From NCBI GenBank assembly GCA_021776595.1, contig JAJFFP010000070.1:1-64000 (forward strand): a DNA stretch of 64,000 nucleotides, written 5' to 3'. A program made the translations under genes and the position numbers. Each line of letters opens with the position of its first letter. The stretch's first letter is position 1. This DNA is from Robiginitomaculum sp. GTDB lineage: Bacteria; Pseudomonadota; Alphaproteobacteria; Caulobacterales; Maricaulaceae. Positions 47,542 through 53,601 of this stretch are shown piece after piece. The notes under the pieces were generated by a model. It was given only the letters and a program-made list of their open reading frames with translations, was not told the origin of the DNA and ran no database searches.

Positions 47542-47628
47542 GCGGGCGTGGCGGAATTGGTAGACGCACAGGACTTAAAATCCTGGGATCATTTGATCGT
47601 GGGGGTTCGATTCCCCCCGCCCGCACCA
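47542..47628 (+). tRNA. tRNA-Leu (anticodon UAA)
   Basis: 87 bases with the CCA end encoded. Acceptor stem GCGGGCG (47542-47548) pairs with CGCCCGC (47618-47624). Anticodon stem CAGGA/TCCTG holds the loop CTTAAAA with anticodon TAA at 47576-47578. There is a long variable arm (GGATCATTTGATC), as expected for a class-II tRNA, and a GGTTCGATTCC T-arm. Confidence 0.97.
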
Positions 47629-47629
47629 A

Positions 47630-48169
47630 TTAAGGATTGAGGTTCTCGTTGTTTTCTTCAATCCGGGTCGGATCAAATGTCGGGTTGCTTTCGCGCAAGG
47701 GGCGCACGGGACAATGATTGAGCTTTTGCGACACATATTGGCAGAAAACGGGGTCCAGCATCACTTTATGGTTTTCCCACCATTCACGCCGACCGGGGGC
47801 GCTATGCAGGTCCAGCCAATAGCTTTCCTTGCCTTCCAACAGTTTTTCATCCAGCGCGTTTTGCCGGCGTAGATGATAACACAATTCCCACATGGCGGTT
47901 TCAGAAAAACACCACAGGGTGTATCGGTGTTGCTCCCAATGGTTAAGACTTTTCATGTCTTCATTGCCGCGAAGCGCTATTTTATAGAGCACGGAATCCG
48001 CCAATAGCTGGTCCACAAGCGCCTTTTGATAATCAAGAACGGCGATGGTCGCCTGCCCTTTCATTTGATTGCGGGTCAGGACGATTTGAACAGCCACAAA
48101 CATTAGTGAGCCAAGAATGGCCAGCACAGCCACCGTCTGACCGACATAGTAAATGCTCTCAAGCGTCAT
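47630..48169 (-). CDS. Paralogue array member 1 (last gene): membrane-anchored protein of unknown function
   Basis: 179 residues from the ATG at 48169 (start MTLESIYYVGQTVAVLAILG, as in its neighbours; the longer frame has no support). One N-terminal helix (about 9-31), then a soluble domain with the array pattern: LNHWEQHRYTLW, ELCYHLRRQNAL and PGRREWWENH. The C-terminal tail is acidic. Its start lies inside the last 11 bases of member 2, so translation is coupled. It ends two bases from the 3' end of the tRNA-Leu gene on the other strand. Confidence 0.78.
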   Translation of the reverse strand: MTLESIYYVGQTVAVLAILGSLMFVAVQIVLTRNQMKGQATIAVLDYQKALVDQLLADSVLYKIALRGNEDMKSLNHWEQHRYTLWCFSETAMWELCYHLRRQNALDEKLLEGKESYWLDLHSAPGRREWWENHKVMLDPVFCQYVSQKLNHCPVRPLRESNPTFDPTRIEENNENLNP

Positions 48170-48692
48170 GGTTTTCACTCTCAGCGTCTGGCTTTCTTGA
48201 AGCGCCGAACGGTTTTGAATTTGGGTGAACCTCACGTTTCATCAGATCAGTATCAATATAATCTTGAAACGACTGGCTGAACATATAACCGCGTTCGGCC
48301 CAGAATTCTTTTCCACCGTTGTTTGTGAACAGGTTCATGGAAACCGATTCCCACCCGCGCCATAGATCGGGCGAGAGCGAGCCATCCTTCCATTTTAAAT
48401 ATGCGTCCTGATGGTATAATGAAAACGACATGAACACGGTAATAAACTGCGCTTTCTCAATTTCTGTTAGCCGCTGATACTCCCTGAACCCTTTAATACT
48501 GATGGCCAACACATCGGGTTGGTTTTGCACTGAGGTATACCAGGCAGCGAAATTGCTGTGCACGGCTTGCGCGGCGGAGGCCCTGGTCGCAATAGTGCTC
48601 TGGCGCACTTGCAAGCCGACAAAAATGAGCGAGATGACCACGCTAAAGGCGGCAACAATGCTGGCAATAAAATAAATATCTTCAAGAGTCAT
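48159..48692 (-). CDS. Paralogue array member 2: membrane-anchored protein of unknown function
   Basis: 177 residues. The N-terminus MTLEDIYFIASIVAAFSVVI and the helix end LIFVGLQVRQ are the family's anchor. The domain shows the shared points RLTEIEKAQFITVF, AYLKWKDGSL and GGKEFWAER. It is the most diverged member in its helix, and the first WW is FW. It begins in a four-base overlap (ATGA) with member 3 and has a ribosome site (AGGA) inside that gene's end. Confidence 0.78.
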   Translation of the reverse strand: MTLEDIYFIASIVAAFSVVISLIFVGLQVRQSTIATRASAAQAVHSNFAAWYTSVQNQPDVLAISIKGFREYQRLTEIEKAQFITVFMSFSLYHQDAYLKWKDGSLSPDLWRGWESVSMNLFTNNGGKEFWAERGYMFSQSFQDYIDTDLMKREVHPNSKPFGASRKPDAESENHDA

Positions 48693-49261
48693 GTTCCTGG
48701 TTCCTCAGGATCATCCGAAGGTAATGGCGATGCCGATGCCACGGGCTTTGTGCCGGGCGATTTCGCCGCCTGTGCCTCGATCTCGCTGACCATGCGGTCA
48801 ATAAGCGCAATATATGCTGGGTCGCTCCTCTTCAGGCGATACCGCCGCCACCAATTACGGGCCGCCGGATCTTTCATATAGCTCAATGTCGTTGCTTCCA
48901 TTTGTGAATAGGTTGCTTCTTCGATCAGTCCACGACGATGCAGGTTAAAACCGGCTTCGTGGCTGCCAAGCGCTACACTCATGACATACAGGAACCGTAA
49001 TTTTTCCGGCCCGGTCAACGGTTGATTTTCGACCAGCGTCCGGTATAGGAAATCGGCCTTTTCTGGGGAATCTGCCAGTGACAACTGTATTGCACCCGTC
49101 TGCATCCAGACATTTAGGGTCAGGTCGACGCGTGCGAGCTCGCTCATTTGCTGTGTCTGCTTGCTGATTTGGCGCATCTGAAAAAATACCGCCGCTAGCG
49201 ACGCCAGGATCGCCAATACCGCCACCGTCTGGCCGATATAATAAATGCTCTCAAGGGTCAT
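48689..49261 (-). CDS. Paralogue array member 3: membrane-anchored protein of unknown function
   Basis: 190 residues, the longest member. Anchor MTLESIYYIGQTVAVLAILA then SLAAVFFQMRQ. A polar stretch rich in Gln follows (ISKQTQQMSELARVD), which may form a coiled coil. Shared points: PLTGPEKLRFLYVMSVAL, GFNLHRRGLI and PAARNWWRRYRLK. The tail is rich in Pro/Ser/Ala/Asp. ATGA overlap with member 4. Confidence 0.8.
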   Translation of the reverse strand: MTLESIYYIGQTVAVLAILASLAAVFFQMRQISKQTQQMSELARVDLTLNVWMQTGAIQLSLADSPEKADFLYRTLVENQPLTGPEKLRFLYVMSVALGSHEAGFNLHRRGLIEEATYSQMEATTLSYMKDPAARNWWRRYRLKRSDPAYIALIDRMVSEIEAQAAKSPGTKPVASASPLPSDDPEEPGT

Positions 49262-49785
49262 GATTGTGGCTCTTCCTTTTTGGCTGGGCGGACTTTCGCC
49301 TCGGCACGGGCAGCGATCTTGTCAATGATTTCACTGAAAGGAGGAACGAAGCGATCCTTGCGGGCCAGCGCCCACCATTTACGCACCCGTGGGCTTTCAA
49401 AATAAACCGCCATGGATCGCATGGTCCGCTGATGGCTCGTCTCGTCGAACAAGCCTTGCCGCCATAACACATACCCGCTTTCTACGGTGCTCAGCATATT
49501 TGACATATTAATGCTAAAGCGCAGCTTTTCTGCATCAGTCAGGGGCGCCGCGCCATAAAGGCCACGCTGCATCAGATCAGCACTCTCAGGCGTCGAGTAC
49601 ATTTGCGCTTGGGTTACCAGAATAGTGTCCCAGGAAGCCTGCGTCATGTCCGCTTTGGCTAATGTGTTCGCCTGCTCCGCTGCCCGATTGCTTTGACGCA
49701 CTTGCAAGCCTACAAATATGAGCGAGGCAAGGATCGCAATGACGGCAACGATCTGGCTTATAAAATAGATGCTTTCAAGCGTCAT
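49258..49785 (-). CDS. Paralogue array member 4: membrane-anchored protein of unknown function
   Basis: 175 residues from the ATG at 49785 (AGGGG upstream; overlaps the end of member 5 by four bases). Anchor MTLESIYFISQIVAVIAILA then SLIFVGLQVRQ. Shared points: PLTDAEKLRFSINMSNML, YVLWRQGLF and PRVRKWWALAR. It is most like member 3 in the middle of the domain. The Lys/Glu-rich C-terminal tail is not conserved. Confidence 0.8.
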   Translation of the reverse strand: MTLESIYFISQIVAVIAILASLIFVGLQVRQSNRAAEQANTLAKADMTQASWDTILVTQAQMYSTPESADLMQRGLYGAAPLTDAEKLRFSINMSNMLSTVESGYVLWRQGLFDETSHQRTMRSMAVYFESPRVRKWWALARKDRFVPPFSEIIDKIAARAEAKVRPAKKEEPQS

Positions 49786-50300
49786 TTGTTTGTTTCCCCT
49801 GCTGGTTTGGCATAAGGCTCTTCCAACAATTGCGGTGCGCAAGCGAGACAATTGTCAAAATAAGCGATAAACTCAGGCGAGAAGCGCAACGCCTTGTTTG
49901 CCTCCCAACTTGCCCGGGCAAGCGGGCTCTTCTGTTGCTGCCAAACCACCATGGCTTCCAGACGCCTGACAATATCGGGTTCAACCAGATGGTTACGATG
50001 GAGGTTATACACACGCTCAAGGTTCATCAGTCCCTTTTCCAGCCAGGAGATAAACCGGGTGCATTCCACATCGGTTAAACGTTTGCTGGTGAACATGGCC
50101 TGATGGTAAATTTTCGCAAAAGTATCGTTTTCAATGACATAGCGAGTATGATCAGCAATCAGGTCTTGCGATGAAGACGTCAGTTGCGCCCGGGCCAGAC
50201 GATTGGCCTGACGCATTTGAACAATAACACCGACCAGTGAACCAAGAATGGCCAGCACCGCCACCGTCTGGCCGATGTAATAGATGCTTTCAAGGCTCAT
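49782..50300 (-). CDS. Paralogue array member 5: membrane-anchored protein of unknown function
   Basis: 172 residues. Anchor MSLESIYYIGQTVAVLAILG then SLVGVIVQMRQANRLARAQL; the basic residues just after the helix suggest the soluble domain is in the cytoplasm. Shared points: RLTDVECTRFISWL, VYNLHRNHLV and PLARASWEAN. It overlaps members 4 and 6 by four bases each. Confidence 0.8.
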   Translation of the reverse strand: MSLESIYYIGQTVAVLAILGSLVGVIVQMRQANRLARAQLTSSSQDLIADHTRYVIENDTFAKIYHQAMFTSKRLTDVECTRFISWLEKGLMNLERVYNLHRNHLVEPDIVRRLEAMVVWQQQKSPLARASWEANKALRFSPEFIAYFDNCLACAPQLLEEPYAKPAGETNK

Positions 50301-50824
50301 GACTTTGATTTTTCCATTGGAGCGAATTGGGGCATAAACTCGTAGATTGGCGGCGTCACGCCACCCAGCGCCGTCAGGCGCTGGTCAAGATGATCAACCA
50401 GATCAACGCCCATAAATTTTCTCGTATGCGCCCACCATTGCGCCCCGCCGGGCGTAGAAATGATCCCCAATGTAAATAATTCAAAGCCATTGTAAGAGGA
50501 ATCCGTGATCAGTTCATCTTTTTTCATGTAAATACACTGTTCCATGATGAGCAAAAATGTCATGGCCCAGGTCGCGAAATTACTCTTGGTTTCATGTGAT
50601 GCGCCGTCAAACTCCATCAACCCATGGCGAACGTCCTTTAGAACTTTTGAATTGTCGAATGTCAGGAGCATAAATTCGGAGGCGTTCTTGAGAAGTTCGC
50701 GCTGGCTGCTGGCCCGCGCAATCAACTGGCCCTGTCGCATCTGAAAGAAAATAGCCCCTAACGATGCAATGATAACCAGCACCGCCATTGTCTGGCCGAT
50801 ATAATAGATGCTTTCAAGGGTCAT
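50297..50824 (-). CDS. Paralogue array member 6 (first of the six): membrane-anchored protein of unknown function
   Basis: 175 residues. Anchor MTLESIYYIGQTMAVLVIIA then SLGAIFFQMRQGQL. The shared points are weaker: HETKSNFATWAMTF, CIYMKKDELI and PGGAQWWAHTRKF. It begins 15 bases after the stop of the four-helix membrane protein gene, with a GGAGAGGC ribosome site, and is followed by member 5 with ATGA overlap. Confidence 0.8.
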   Translation of the reverse strand: MTLESIYYIGQTMAVLVIIASLGAIFFQMRQGQLIARASSQRELLKNASEFMLLTFDNSKVLKDVRHGLMEFDGASHETKSNFATWAMTFLLIMEQCIYMKKDELITDSSYNGFELFTLGIISTPGGAQWWAHTRKFMGVDLVDHLDQRLTALGGVTPPIYEFMPQFAPMEKSKS

Positions 50825-50839
50825 AGAATGGCCTCTCCT

Positions 50840-51334
50840 TTATTTGCGAGGTGTCAGGACCAGGCGCACGAACAAAATGGACGCCAATATTAATTGCCAT
50901 ATCAGGGAAATGACAAAAACGCCGGGTGATGCCGTCTGTGTCGCATTGATGAACAGCCAGAGCACCAGTGCGCCACTACCGCCAAAAAACAGCACCCAGA
51001 CCCATAATGATAATTTCTTGCGGACACTGGTTTCCAGCCGCGAAGCGGCAAAAATTGGCCCGGCCATGCTGGCCATAATAATAATAACGGCAAGAAAGGT
51101 GCTGGACAGGCGCCACAAATCATTGCCCGCGATTCCAAACGCACTCAAAACAAGAGGGATGAGCGAACCAAAGGCAGCGCCAAAAGCGACAAGCAACATG
51201 CTTAGCGTTCGGAAATGATCCAGCGGCGCAAAATCTTTGCCATGAACCCCGATAATGATGGCGATAACGATCCCGGAAAACCCGATCAACGCCACGGCAA
51301 AGTCTGTCAGAATTGTTATATCGCCCGGTGTCAT
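50840..51334 (-). CDS. Four-helix membrane protein heading the paralogue operon
   Basis: 164 residues, four membrane helices: FAVALIGFSGIVIAIIIGVH, MLLVAFGAAFGSLIPLVLSA, STFLAVIIIMASMAGPIFAA and LWVWVLFFGGSGALVLWLFI, with a fifth short one possible near the end (ISLIWQLILASILFVRLVL). I do not recognise a family. It is first in the minus-strand operon, so it may be the membrane partner of the six single-helix paralogues. The ATG has GGAG nine bases upstream. Confidence 0.75.
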   Translation of the reverse strand: MTPGDITILTDFAVALIGFSGIVIAIIIGVHGKDFAPLDHFRTLSMLLVAFGAAFGSLIPLVLSAFGIAGNDLWRLSSTFLAVIIIMASMAGPIFAASRLETSVRKKLSLWVWVLFFGGSGALVLWLFINATQTASPGVFVISLIWQLILASILFVRLVLTPRK

Positions 51335-51558
51335 GGGCTTGCTCCGTATGTTTTATCTTCACTGATCATCCACATTCTCTCAGGTGCCTGCTCAACACCT
51401 ATAGGCAATTTTAATTCCCATGACCACAATTCAGTCGGGATACATGGCGCGGGCAATTTGGAAGCAGCGCCTGCCGCCTTTGCTAATGTCACCACCTAAT
51501 GGTTCAGCTATCTCACAGCAATGCTATACGATATAAAGCAGGCATACGGGAGATGGTG

Positions 51559-52695
51559 ATGAAATTTCGGGGTGTTGGTTTGGTTATCGCTTTATGTGCG
51601 GGTTTATCGGGATGTGAACAAAAAAGCGCGGTGCCAGTGGCGGTGGTTCCCGCCCTGGAAATGAATACCGCTCAGGAAGCACGGTTTTCCAAACTGGCGC
51701 TTGCCTGTGTTCACCGTGAATACCCCAACAAGATCAGCCACACCATGCGTAGTGATGCAGATGCGAAAACCCCGCGCCAACTGCATCCATCGTTTTATGG
51801 GTGTTTTGACTGGCACTCCTCCGTGCATGGGCATTGGTTGCTGGTGCGCCTGTTGCACACGGGTGCCGCCAATGCGCCCTGGCGGAATGCGGCGATTAAC
51901 GCCCTGTCATTAAGCTTTACACCGGATAACATCGCCCCAGAAATCGCCTATTTTGACAATGAGAACCGTGGCTCGTTCGAGCGTCCCTACGGTCTCGCCT
52001 GGTATCTGCAATTGATGAGCGAGTTACGGGAATGGGACGATCCACAGGCCAAAGTCTGGCTTGAAACCTTGTCGCCATTAGAGGCGGTCATTGCGGCGCG
52101 GATCAAAACCTGGTTGCCAAAACTGGCGTATCCGATCCGTCTTGGCACCCATAACCAGTCTGCTTTTGCCTTTGGTCTGATCCTCGATTGGGCGCGTGGT
52201 GCCGGAGATACGGATATGGAGGATTTGATTATCCAGCGCACACGGGATTTTCACCTAAAAGATCGCAACTGCCCGCTTGATTATGAGCCAAGCGGCGAGG
52301 ATTTTCTCTCGCCCTGCCTGATGGAGGCCGATTTGATGCGTCGGGTCTTGGGAAAACACGAATTTGCCAACTGGCTTACTGATTTTCTGCCATACCTGCC
52401 TATGGATGGCCGTGAGGACTGGCTGGCACCGGGAATTGTGCAAGATGCGTCAGATGGCAAGCTGGTGCATCTGGATGGGGTAAATTTATCGCGGGCATGG
52501 AATTTGGAAAACATCGCACTGGCTCTACCGCAAGACGATCCACGTATTGCCGCGCTATATGCGGCGGCGAAAGTGCATAAAGCGGCGGGACTGGCGGCTG
52601 TTACGGATGCCCATTACAGCGGCTCGCACTGGCTGGCCAGCTTTGCCACCTACCTGATAACCAAAAGAGGCCGATCAGCGCAGGAAGTTCAGTAA
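51559..52695 (+). CDS. DUF2891-like putative lipoprotein
   Basis: 378 residues from the ATG at 51559 (CGGGAG six bases upstream). The N-terminus MKFRGVGLVIALCAGLSGCE is a lipoprotein signal with Cys in the LSGC lipobox. The body resembles DUF2891 proteins: HPSFYGCFDWHSSVHGHWLL, GSFERPYGLAWYLQLMSELR, HNQSAFAFGLILDWA, GEDFLSPCLMEADLM and a final HYSGSHWLASFATYLI. Several conserved Trp/His residues suggest an alpha-barrel glycosidase-like fold, but the activity is unknown to me. Its end overlaps the convergent flgL by 21 bases. Confidence 0.78.
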   Translation: MKFRGVGLVIALCAGLSGCEQKSAVPVAVVPALEMNTAQEARFSKLALACVHREYPNKISHTMRSDADAKTPRQLHPSFYGCFDWHSSVHGHWLLVRLLHTGAANAPWRNAAINALSLSFTPDNIAPEIAYFDNENRGSFERPYGLAWYLQLMSELREWDDPQAKVWLETLSPLEAVIAARIKTWLPKLAYPIRLGTHNQSAFAFGLILDWARGAGDTDMEDLIIQRTRDFHLKDRNCPLDYEPSGEDFLSPCLMEADLMRRVLGKHEFANWLTDFLPYLPMDGREDWLAPGIVQDASDGKLVHLDGVNLSRAWNLENIALALPQDDPRIAALYAAAKVHKAAGLAAVTDAHYSGSHWLASFATYLITKRGRSAQEVQ

Positions 52696-53601
52696 GGAAA
52701 GATTGCTGAGGATCGAGAAGGTTCGCGCCGAGGCCTCGACCGCCGTTTGCGCCTGTGACAACCTTGTAGCAGCTTCGGCCAGATCCACATCCTCAATATC
52801 ACCGACGACCTGCTTTAGCAGAACTTGTTGGTCTTCTGCGCGTTGTTGGGCAGTTTCCACCCGCTGTTGTAACAGGCCGTTTTTGGCAACCACCGTATTC
52901 AAACCATCGGCGGCGCTGGAAATACTGGCCAAAGTGCCTTGCAGGAAGGTCTTTTGCGCGGATGTCAACGTTGCGCCAAAAGGACCGGAGGCACTATCGT
53001 TATAATCCTTGATGGATTTAATCACGGTGAGCAGATCCTTGCCGACCTCATCGGCCAAAAAGCCGATCTCGACTGAATTGCCCTCGTCAATACGTGCGGT
53101 GGCTTTAACCTTGGTGTTATCAAATACATCGGCAACCGCTGCGGCGGCACCAAGTTCGTTCAGGGTTTTGATATTCACTGGTGATGCATCAACCTTGGTG
53201 CCGCCAAAAAGCGGTCGTCCGGCAAAGCTCTGGTTCAGGCCGTTCAGCGCACGGCCAAAGGCAGCCTCCAATTGCTGGACTAGCGTAACACCTGAATTAA
53301 GCCCGATCGCATCAATGACTGCCTGGCGTAAATCGTCAGCGGAACCGGAAATTTCATTTAAGGCAAGGTCTTGCGTTGCCAGTCGGCCGGTAATTTCCTT
53401 GGTGGTCTGAATATAGGTTTCTGTGCGCGCCGATAGCGTATAAGCAGCATTTAAGGCCCCCAATTGCGGCGCAAACCCTTTCAAATCATCGGCTTTTTTA
53501 CCACTGGACACTTGTTTTTGTGCCGTCAGTAAATCGCTCTGATTGCGCAATAACTCAATCAGGGAAGCCTGGTTGGAAACATTGGTGGCAATGCGTGGCA
53601 T
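52675..53601 (-). CDS. flgL: Flagellar hook-filament junction protein FlgL
   Basis: 308 residues. It has the flagellin-like ends: the N-terminal helix (NQASLIELLRNQSDLLTAQK, QVSSGKKADDLKGF) and the C-terminal helix (ATRLSQAQTAVEASARTFSI, LSNLSLLNFLR). The middle is short. FlgL (HAP3) joins hook-associated FlgK to the filament. It follows flgK on the same strand, 23 bases after its stop. Confidence 0.9.
   Translation of the reverse strand: MPRIATNVSNQASLIELLRNQSDLLTAQKQVSSGKKADDLKGFAPQLGALNAAYTLSARTETYIQTTKEITGRLATQDLALNEISGSADDLRQAVIDAIGLNSGVTLVQQLEAAFGRALNGLNQSFAGRPLFGGTKVDASPVNIKTLNELGAAAAVADVFDNTKVKATARIDEGNSVEIGFLADEVGKDLLTVIKSIKDYNDSASGPFGATLTSAQKTFLQGTLASISSAADGLNTVVAKNGLLQQRVETAQQRAEDQQVLLKQVVGDIEDVDLAEAATRLSQAQTAVEASARTFSILSNLSLLNFLR

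Follow-up and report, generated by a model that had tools for sequence, protein, structure and literature searches.

What is a bacterium's use for a row of tandem, distantly related genes that all code for small membrane-anchored proteins? The question is raised by a locus of Robiginitomaculum sp. (GenBank assembly GCA_021776595.1), analyzed here in a window that comprises the first 64,000 nucleotides of contig JAJFFP010000070.1; the genome, referred to as G000, is a 2.63-Mb draft of 94% completeness. The locus consists of six paralogues, termed A1 to A6, and a gene for a membrane protein, T4, which leads the operon (Table 1). An earlier reading of the window alone (the original prediction) took the paralogues for subunits of a hetero-oligomeric membrane complex, kept for distinct roles and partnered by T4. 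Comparison with other genomes points to a fluid repertoire of anchored domains that is organised like polyimmunity loci and whose role is most likely protective, a reading which we put forward tentatively; a fixed hetero-oligomer is less likely than such a repertoire.

According to the open reading frame list, A1 to A6 span positions 47630–50824 of the minus strand, all start with ATG, and code for proteins of 172–190 residues. All six begin with M[TS]LE[SD]IY[YF], the membrane helix ends with [VM]RQ in every paralogue except A6, and a P-x4-WW motif is exact in A1, A3, A4 and A6, with a single tryptophan in A2 and A5. Protein identity within the array is 21–38%; BLASTP comparisons between family members gave E values of ~1e-15 to 1e-37, which rules out chance likeness. 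Coordinates and BLASTP thus agree with the original prediction on six consecutive paralogues with common motifs in a single compact operon. Its statement that every junction overlaps by 4 or 11 bases holds among A1–A6, where the overlaps are, in order, 4, 4, 4, 4 and 11 bp (the last one at A5/A6), but not for T4 and A1, which are separated by a gap of 15 bp. No gene interrupts the array and all members lie on the same strand, so that A1–A6 would form one transcript. Promoter-like sites at the locus do not exceed the number expected by chance, and terminator-like matches outnumber those in shuffled sequences, yet fall within genes.

Each protein, a predicted single-pass protein of the inner membrane, comprises two modules, namely a strongly conserved N-terminal anchor of ~36 residues, in which one membrane helix is followed by a basic exit motif, and a five-helix domain that has strongly diverged. 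Across 42 members, mean identity is 52% in the first ~33 residues and 20% in the soluble domain; the high divergence described before is therefore true of the domain, but very uneven along the protein. An AlphaFold2 monomer model of A3, based on an alignment of 27 relatives, is confident (mean predicted local distance difference test score, pLDDT, 91.9) and shows a long helix (residues 3–62) that passes through the membrane and extends into a stalk, followed by five helices within residues 66–165. The 20 residues after the membrane helix include 2–4 lysines or arginines, in line with the earlier remark on basic residues at this position, and by the positive-inside rule the soluble domain is probably cytoplasmic.

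None of the six paralogues reached a curated cut-off in Pfam-A or NCBIfam. PHROGs returned scattered weak matches, none of them credible, and PADLOC-DB 2.0.0 only scattered unrelated models (best E 0.005) without a credible match to anti-phage defence. The nearest Pfam family is DUF6082 (PF19560), which A3 matches with 19.3 bits (E 8.8e-4) and A4 with 12.4 bits, the gathering cut-off being 26.7 bits. This weak likeness covers the helical domain, is seen at E ≤0.05 in 5 of the 42 relatives (best 1e-4), and lies below the cut-off wherever a cut-off was given; in a whole-genome search for DUF6082 the control itself gave no match. The function of DUF6082 is undescribed, and no paper naming DUF6082 or DUF6090, a family discussed below, was found in the literature searched. 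A sequence-profile search against the PDB gave no match, and Foldseek comparison of the A3 model with the PDB identified no chain at E <0.001 (best E 0.37). The family, predicted to be an unrecognised one with a single N-terminal helix, is indeed unrecognised and a real feature, standing outside all curated libraries searched and having a confidently predicted domain without a significant match to a solved structure. Among viral structures (Foldseek, BFVD), the best match was A0A3G8F6F1, an unnamed 193-aa protein aligned over its full length (probability 0.97, E 0.068, 15% identity), which is a possible viral counterpart of the family and should be taken as a lead only.

In a fixed complex, the paralogues would join via their anchors, T4 would serve as scaffold, and each copy would have a distinct, conserved role in sensing or signalling. 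Arrays recur in Robiginitomaculum-like genomes, in line with the original prediction; they occupy different sites, and no two of the genomes compared agree in the genes present or in their order. The order is T4-A1-A2-A3-A4-A5-A6 in G000, T4-A5'-X-A3-type-A3-type-Y in G004, T4-A5'-X in G015, which carries Y-A4' on another contig, and A5'-Z-A3-type-A3-type and ...Y-A1'-Z' in G006. Counterparts, in differing order, were found for A1 in G006, for A3 in G004 and G006, for A4 in G015, and for A5 in G004, G006 and G015; the A4 counterpart in G013 is broken. A2 has no orthologue among the genomes compared and A6 has none in the genus, and paralogues elsewhere are often single genes. The single operon with its coupled overlaps would suit a fixed complex, as would the conserved membrane helix, whose invariant Q28 and whose L22 are suited to helix packing, but given the variable composition we consider this explanation distinctly unlikely.

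The sole counterpart of A6 occurs in the gammaproteobacterium NOR5-3. Its identity of 72% across classes, as compared to 20–38% among paralogues, suggests horizontal transfer; the GC contents of the two genes are similar. A4 is 50% identical to a Myxococcales protein, again exceeding the identity among paralogues. Single members (A6, A4) have thus likely been transferred horizontally.

Anchors and domains moreover appear to have separate histories. In G006, the genes G006a_4 and G006b_z share 97/85% nucleotide identity over the first 40 codons and 28–47% thereafter, while G006a_2 and G006b_z share 73/49% over the first 40 codons and mostly 77–92% thereafter (20-codon blocks), i.e., identity shifts abruptly around codon 40. 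Anchor and domain trees conflict, and approximately unbiased (AU) tests rejected a shared history (anchor p 0.0013, domain p 3e-58; for A3, anchor p 2e-89, domain p 0.026), with p-values that are indicative only, because the groups were picked after the block identities had been seen. A3 and likewise one G006 gene are evidently chimeric, and anchors and domains evidently recombine independently. The G006 chimera could stem from mixed strains, since two versions of the trxB-TetR locus are present in that assembly; A3 sits inside a 68-kb contig. A shared motif near QANRLARAD at the anchor-domain junction is a plausible crossing point, and no special machinery would be needed for tandem copies with near-identical 5' ends to recombine like this. 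Within the window array, synonymous identity is only modestly raised in the 5' part (0.49 vs 0.35), and recent gene conversion inside the array was discarded as an explanation on this weak signal, the between-genome chimeras being the stronger evidence of recombination. On these sequence comparisons, the array gains and loses genes, has likely received some by horizontal transfer, and recombines among its tandem copies with swaps of anchors; such turnover does not fit the notion that the copies are kept for distinct roles in a fixed hetero-oligomer.

T4 does not behave as an obligate partner either. Orthologues (83–86% identity) occur only in G004, G015 and G010, so that 4 of 18 same-genus genomes, the window's own included, carry the gene; elsewhere, two weak matches were found. 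T4 adjoins an array in three of the four T4-bearing genomes, which would be in keeping with a scaffold, but it stands without an array in G010, and arrays without T4 occur in G006 and in one Parvularculaceae genome. T4 is a frequent but separable companion of the arrays and is nearly restricted to the genus. Described before as a four-helix protein, it is predicted to have five membrane helices by hydropathy (12–30, 44–62, 79–97, 111–129 and 138–156), and an AlphaFold2 model likewise contains five helices (3–35, 40–65, 71–91, 105–133 and 137–160), albeit at low confidence (pLDDT 66). A Pfam search gave no match, and a fold assignment was dropped, since the model is too poor for structural matches to be meaningful.

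Turnover of this kind could also be near-neutral or selfish, copies arising and decaying by unequal crossing-over at their near-identical 5' ends while their number has little adaptive value. Such crossing-over accounts for the chimeras, and broken or truncated copies do exist (in G013, as a G006 fragment, and in Hyphomonas). However, the ratio of nonsynonymous to synonymous substitution rates (dN/dS; Nei-Gojobori method, orthologous pairs) is 0.05–0.32 for the domain and 0.03–0.12 for the anchor (recombined pairs left out), at dS values of 0.3 to >1, some of them near saturation; for T4, orthologous pairs gave 0.17–0.20. These ratios indicate that the members are under purifying selection and code for functional proteins, which would also suit a fixed complex. 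Such low ratios over long divergence, the full-length overlapping reading frames, and independent expansions of the family in several genera make a largely neutral or selfish expansion quite improbable.

The layout of the locus resembles that of polyimmunity loci, in which distantly related paralogues are set closely on one strand and strains vary in how many and which types they carry (PMC3482391). With homogeneous polyimmunity loci (Zhang et al. 2012, PMC3482391), the array has in common the tandem, closely packed, distant paralogues on one strand (here with five overlaps of 4–11 bp), the lack of a toxin gene between them, and a content that varies among close relatives, in this case within the genus and as far as contig ends allow completeness to be judged. 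In contrast to such loci, a conserved membrane anchor is common to the whole window family and anchor-domain chimeras occur; the family matches no known immunity family and has no toxin nearby and no adjacent recombinase, which is present in several published cases. Orphan immunity-gene arrays of the type VI secretion system in Vibrio cholerae expand through horizontal acquisition together with homologous recombination, and no particular integration site is involved (PMC5361080); the array studied here appears to share this mode of growth.

In a fluid repertoire, the anchors would place every domain at one common membrane site, given by a shared partner or a mixed oligomer, whereas the domains would differ in the ligand recognised. 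The cell would then keep and reshuffle functionally equivalent specificities rather than subunits of one machine. Protection could work as in polyimmunity loci, by disarming antibacterial proteins or phage components that come in from outside and exert their effect at the inner membrane or by way of it. An immunity or defence role, which had been named before among several options, is in this sense possible.

The array is a variable chromosomal block. In G012 and G002, sfsA, tRNA-Leu(TAA) and flgL are neighbours, the tRNA and flgL being ~70–160 bp apart; this arrangement represents the empty site. In the window, a block of ~5 kb, consisting of A6–A1, T4 and a DUF2891 gene, occupies this interval, beginning no more than two bases from the 3' end of the tRNA. 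A tRNA-borne integrative element with attachment (att) repeats was considered and rejected: the block is missing from relatives at the tRNA 3' end, as such an element would be, but the 3' end of the tRNA is not repeated in the region searched, and the block has no integrase. The DUF2891 gene is likewise absent from the empty site of G012 and G002, and it runs with its stop codon into the 3' end of flgL.

Table 1. Features of the array locus and its borders in the window
Feature	Position	Strand	Description
tRNA-Leu (TAA)	47542..47628	+	left edge of block, with the A6 stop codon starting 2 bases past it
A6	47630..48169	-	179 aa, paralogue 6; 72% to gammaproteobacterium NOR5-3
A5	48159..48692	-	177 aa, paralogue 5; 67-85% to G015/G004/G006 copies, 45% to Parvularculaceae copy
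A4	48689..49261	-	190 aa, paralogue 4; 78-80% to G015/G013 copies, 50% to Myxococcales protein
A3	49258..49785	-	175 aa, paralogue 3; chimera, anchor of one type and domain of another; AlphaFold2 model
A2	49782..50300	-	172 aa, paralogue 2
A1	50297..50824	-	175 aa, membrane-anchored paralogue 1; G006 C106 orthologue at 83% identity
T4	50840..51334	-	membrane protein leading operon; open reading frame, helix predictions, no Pfam match
DUF2891 lipoprotein-like gene	51499..52695	+	divergent from T4; Pfam PF11199, 449.6 bits
flgL-like flagellin gene	52675..53601	-	right edge of block; adjoins tRNA-Leu in relatives

A second array site, a hot spot whose cargo differs by genome (L116, L130, L029–L031), lies between trxB and a TetR gene. 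In G010 it is occupied by T4 and, as an unrelated gene, one for a SnoaL-like lipoprotein, in G006 by an array that lacks T4, and in G012 by genes for CaiB and an enoyl-CoA hydratase; in G004, T4 and an array lie on the trxB side, the TetR side being unassembled. In G015, T4 and two members adjoin a dihydrolipoamide dehydrogenase-like gene.

The family is patchily distributed. Besides the six genes in the window, a broad profile matched it in G000 once on C73, four times on C83 and, as a fragment, on C53, which gives 12 matches in all. It is present in 20 of 41 relatives; samples of the class and of the phylum gave 11 of 190 and 14 of 349 genomes, respectively, and single loci lie in one Myxococcales and one Acidobacteria metagenome-assembled genome. 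The T4-free array of the Parvularculaceae genome comprises seven genes. Beyond the order, the copies are mostly scattered single genes. The original prediction had named scattered single copies without a conserved neighbour as the finding that would speak against a system; such copies are indeed the rule outside the Maricaulales and occur in part within, but the family shows a strong preference for DUF6090-like neighbours.

DUF6090-like genes lie within 2 kb of 19 of the 43 family clusters in the 41 genomes, as compared to 0.21 expected at random placement; the clusters are not independent, and these figures are a count rather than a P-value. The neighbour in NOR5-3 belongs to DUF6090 (PF19578) with 34 bits, above the cut-off of 23.5, and one neighbour on C83 of G000 comes close with 22.3 bits. 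Beside DUF6090-like genes, no type of neighbour recurs in a convincing way. Both families have a single conserved N-terminal anchor, a diverged domain and tandem arrays, and start and stop codons of adjoining members often overlap (L050, L044). The DUF6090-like proteins differ in their near-invariant MILRR...GLQV start and their longer domain, the six paralogues have no DUF6090 match in Pfam, and homology between the two families is not established by profile comparison (hhalign probability 9%). On C83 (L044:8593-15211), four family genes are interleaved with five DUF6090-like genes, with mostly overlapping start and stop codons. A genome of the same family as G000 contains 22 DUF6090-like genes in tandem within 19 kb (G023:C1:309297-328283), an extreme case of tandem expansion, and has no window-family member.

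This proximity and the common design of conserved anchor and diverged domain would also be expected if both families were regulatory or envelope-stress adaptors that jointly tune a membrane process, the arrays being lineage-specific regulatory expansions. We regard this as rather unlikely, because a patchy distribution, likely horizontal transfer and broken copies are not typical of core regulators, and the window array has no DUF6090-like gene beside it. A bolder extension of the protective reading, which we rate as unlikely, is that both families would form a new diversity-generating membrane repertoire, in which arrays of up to ~22 genes swap a near-invariant anchor among diverged recognition domains and provide strain-variable protection at the inner membrane in marine alphaproteobacteria.

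Several observations weigh against a protective repertoire. The paralogues match no known immunity or defence family in Pfam, NCBIfam or PADLOC. Among 121 neighbours at 32 loci, analyzed with Pfam and PADLOC, there is no recurring toxin or secretion gene, the scan yielding only generic metabolism and one cas1/cas2 match; an enoyl-CoA hydratase was dismissed as partner, as its six occurrences are in unrelated contexts, and no recombinase was found among the neighbouring genes inspected. The V. cholerae arrays lie at the 3' end of type VI secretion system clusters (PMC5361080), whereas none of the 41 genomes tested contains VipB, a type VI secretion gene. The dN/dS values bear no sign of positive selection, and a housekeeping or signalling function would likewise be compatible with low ratios and strong conservation of the anchor. 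The lack of an integrase in the block and of a repeat of the tRNA end must be added, as must the state of the assemblies: contig ends truncate the relatives' arrays, and the trxB-TetR locus of G006 is present as two haplotypes. Members are, furthermore, nearly absent from phages and plasmids: phage and viral-contig sequences gave no family match, and the sole, weak plasmid match is to a 1.1-Mb replicon of Microvirga lotononidis (NZ_CP141050.1:404218-404658), where no gene is annotated; the idea of phage or plasmid cargo was rejected on this basis. In better-studied bacteria, strain-variable arrays flag genes in ecological conflict, and here they come with direct evidence of swaps between anchors and domains. 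If the protective reading is true, marine alphaproteobacteria possess an unmapped repertoire; should it prove wrong, two anchored families that have expanded in linkage would still pose a clear and testable puzzle.

Two further loci deserve mention. A lone family member on C73 of G000 (L045:2491-3198) lies beside a sulfotransferase-like gene, with similar copies in G004, G012 and G033. In G013, decayed array remnants (L034:9-1150) are located beside tRNA-Asp, a second case of array genes next to a tRNA.

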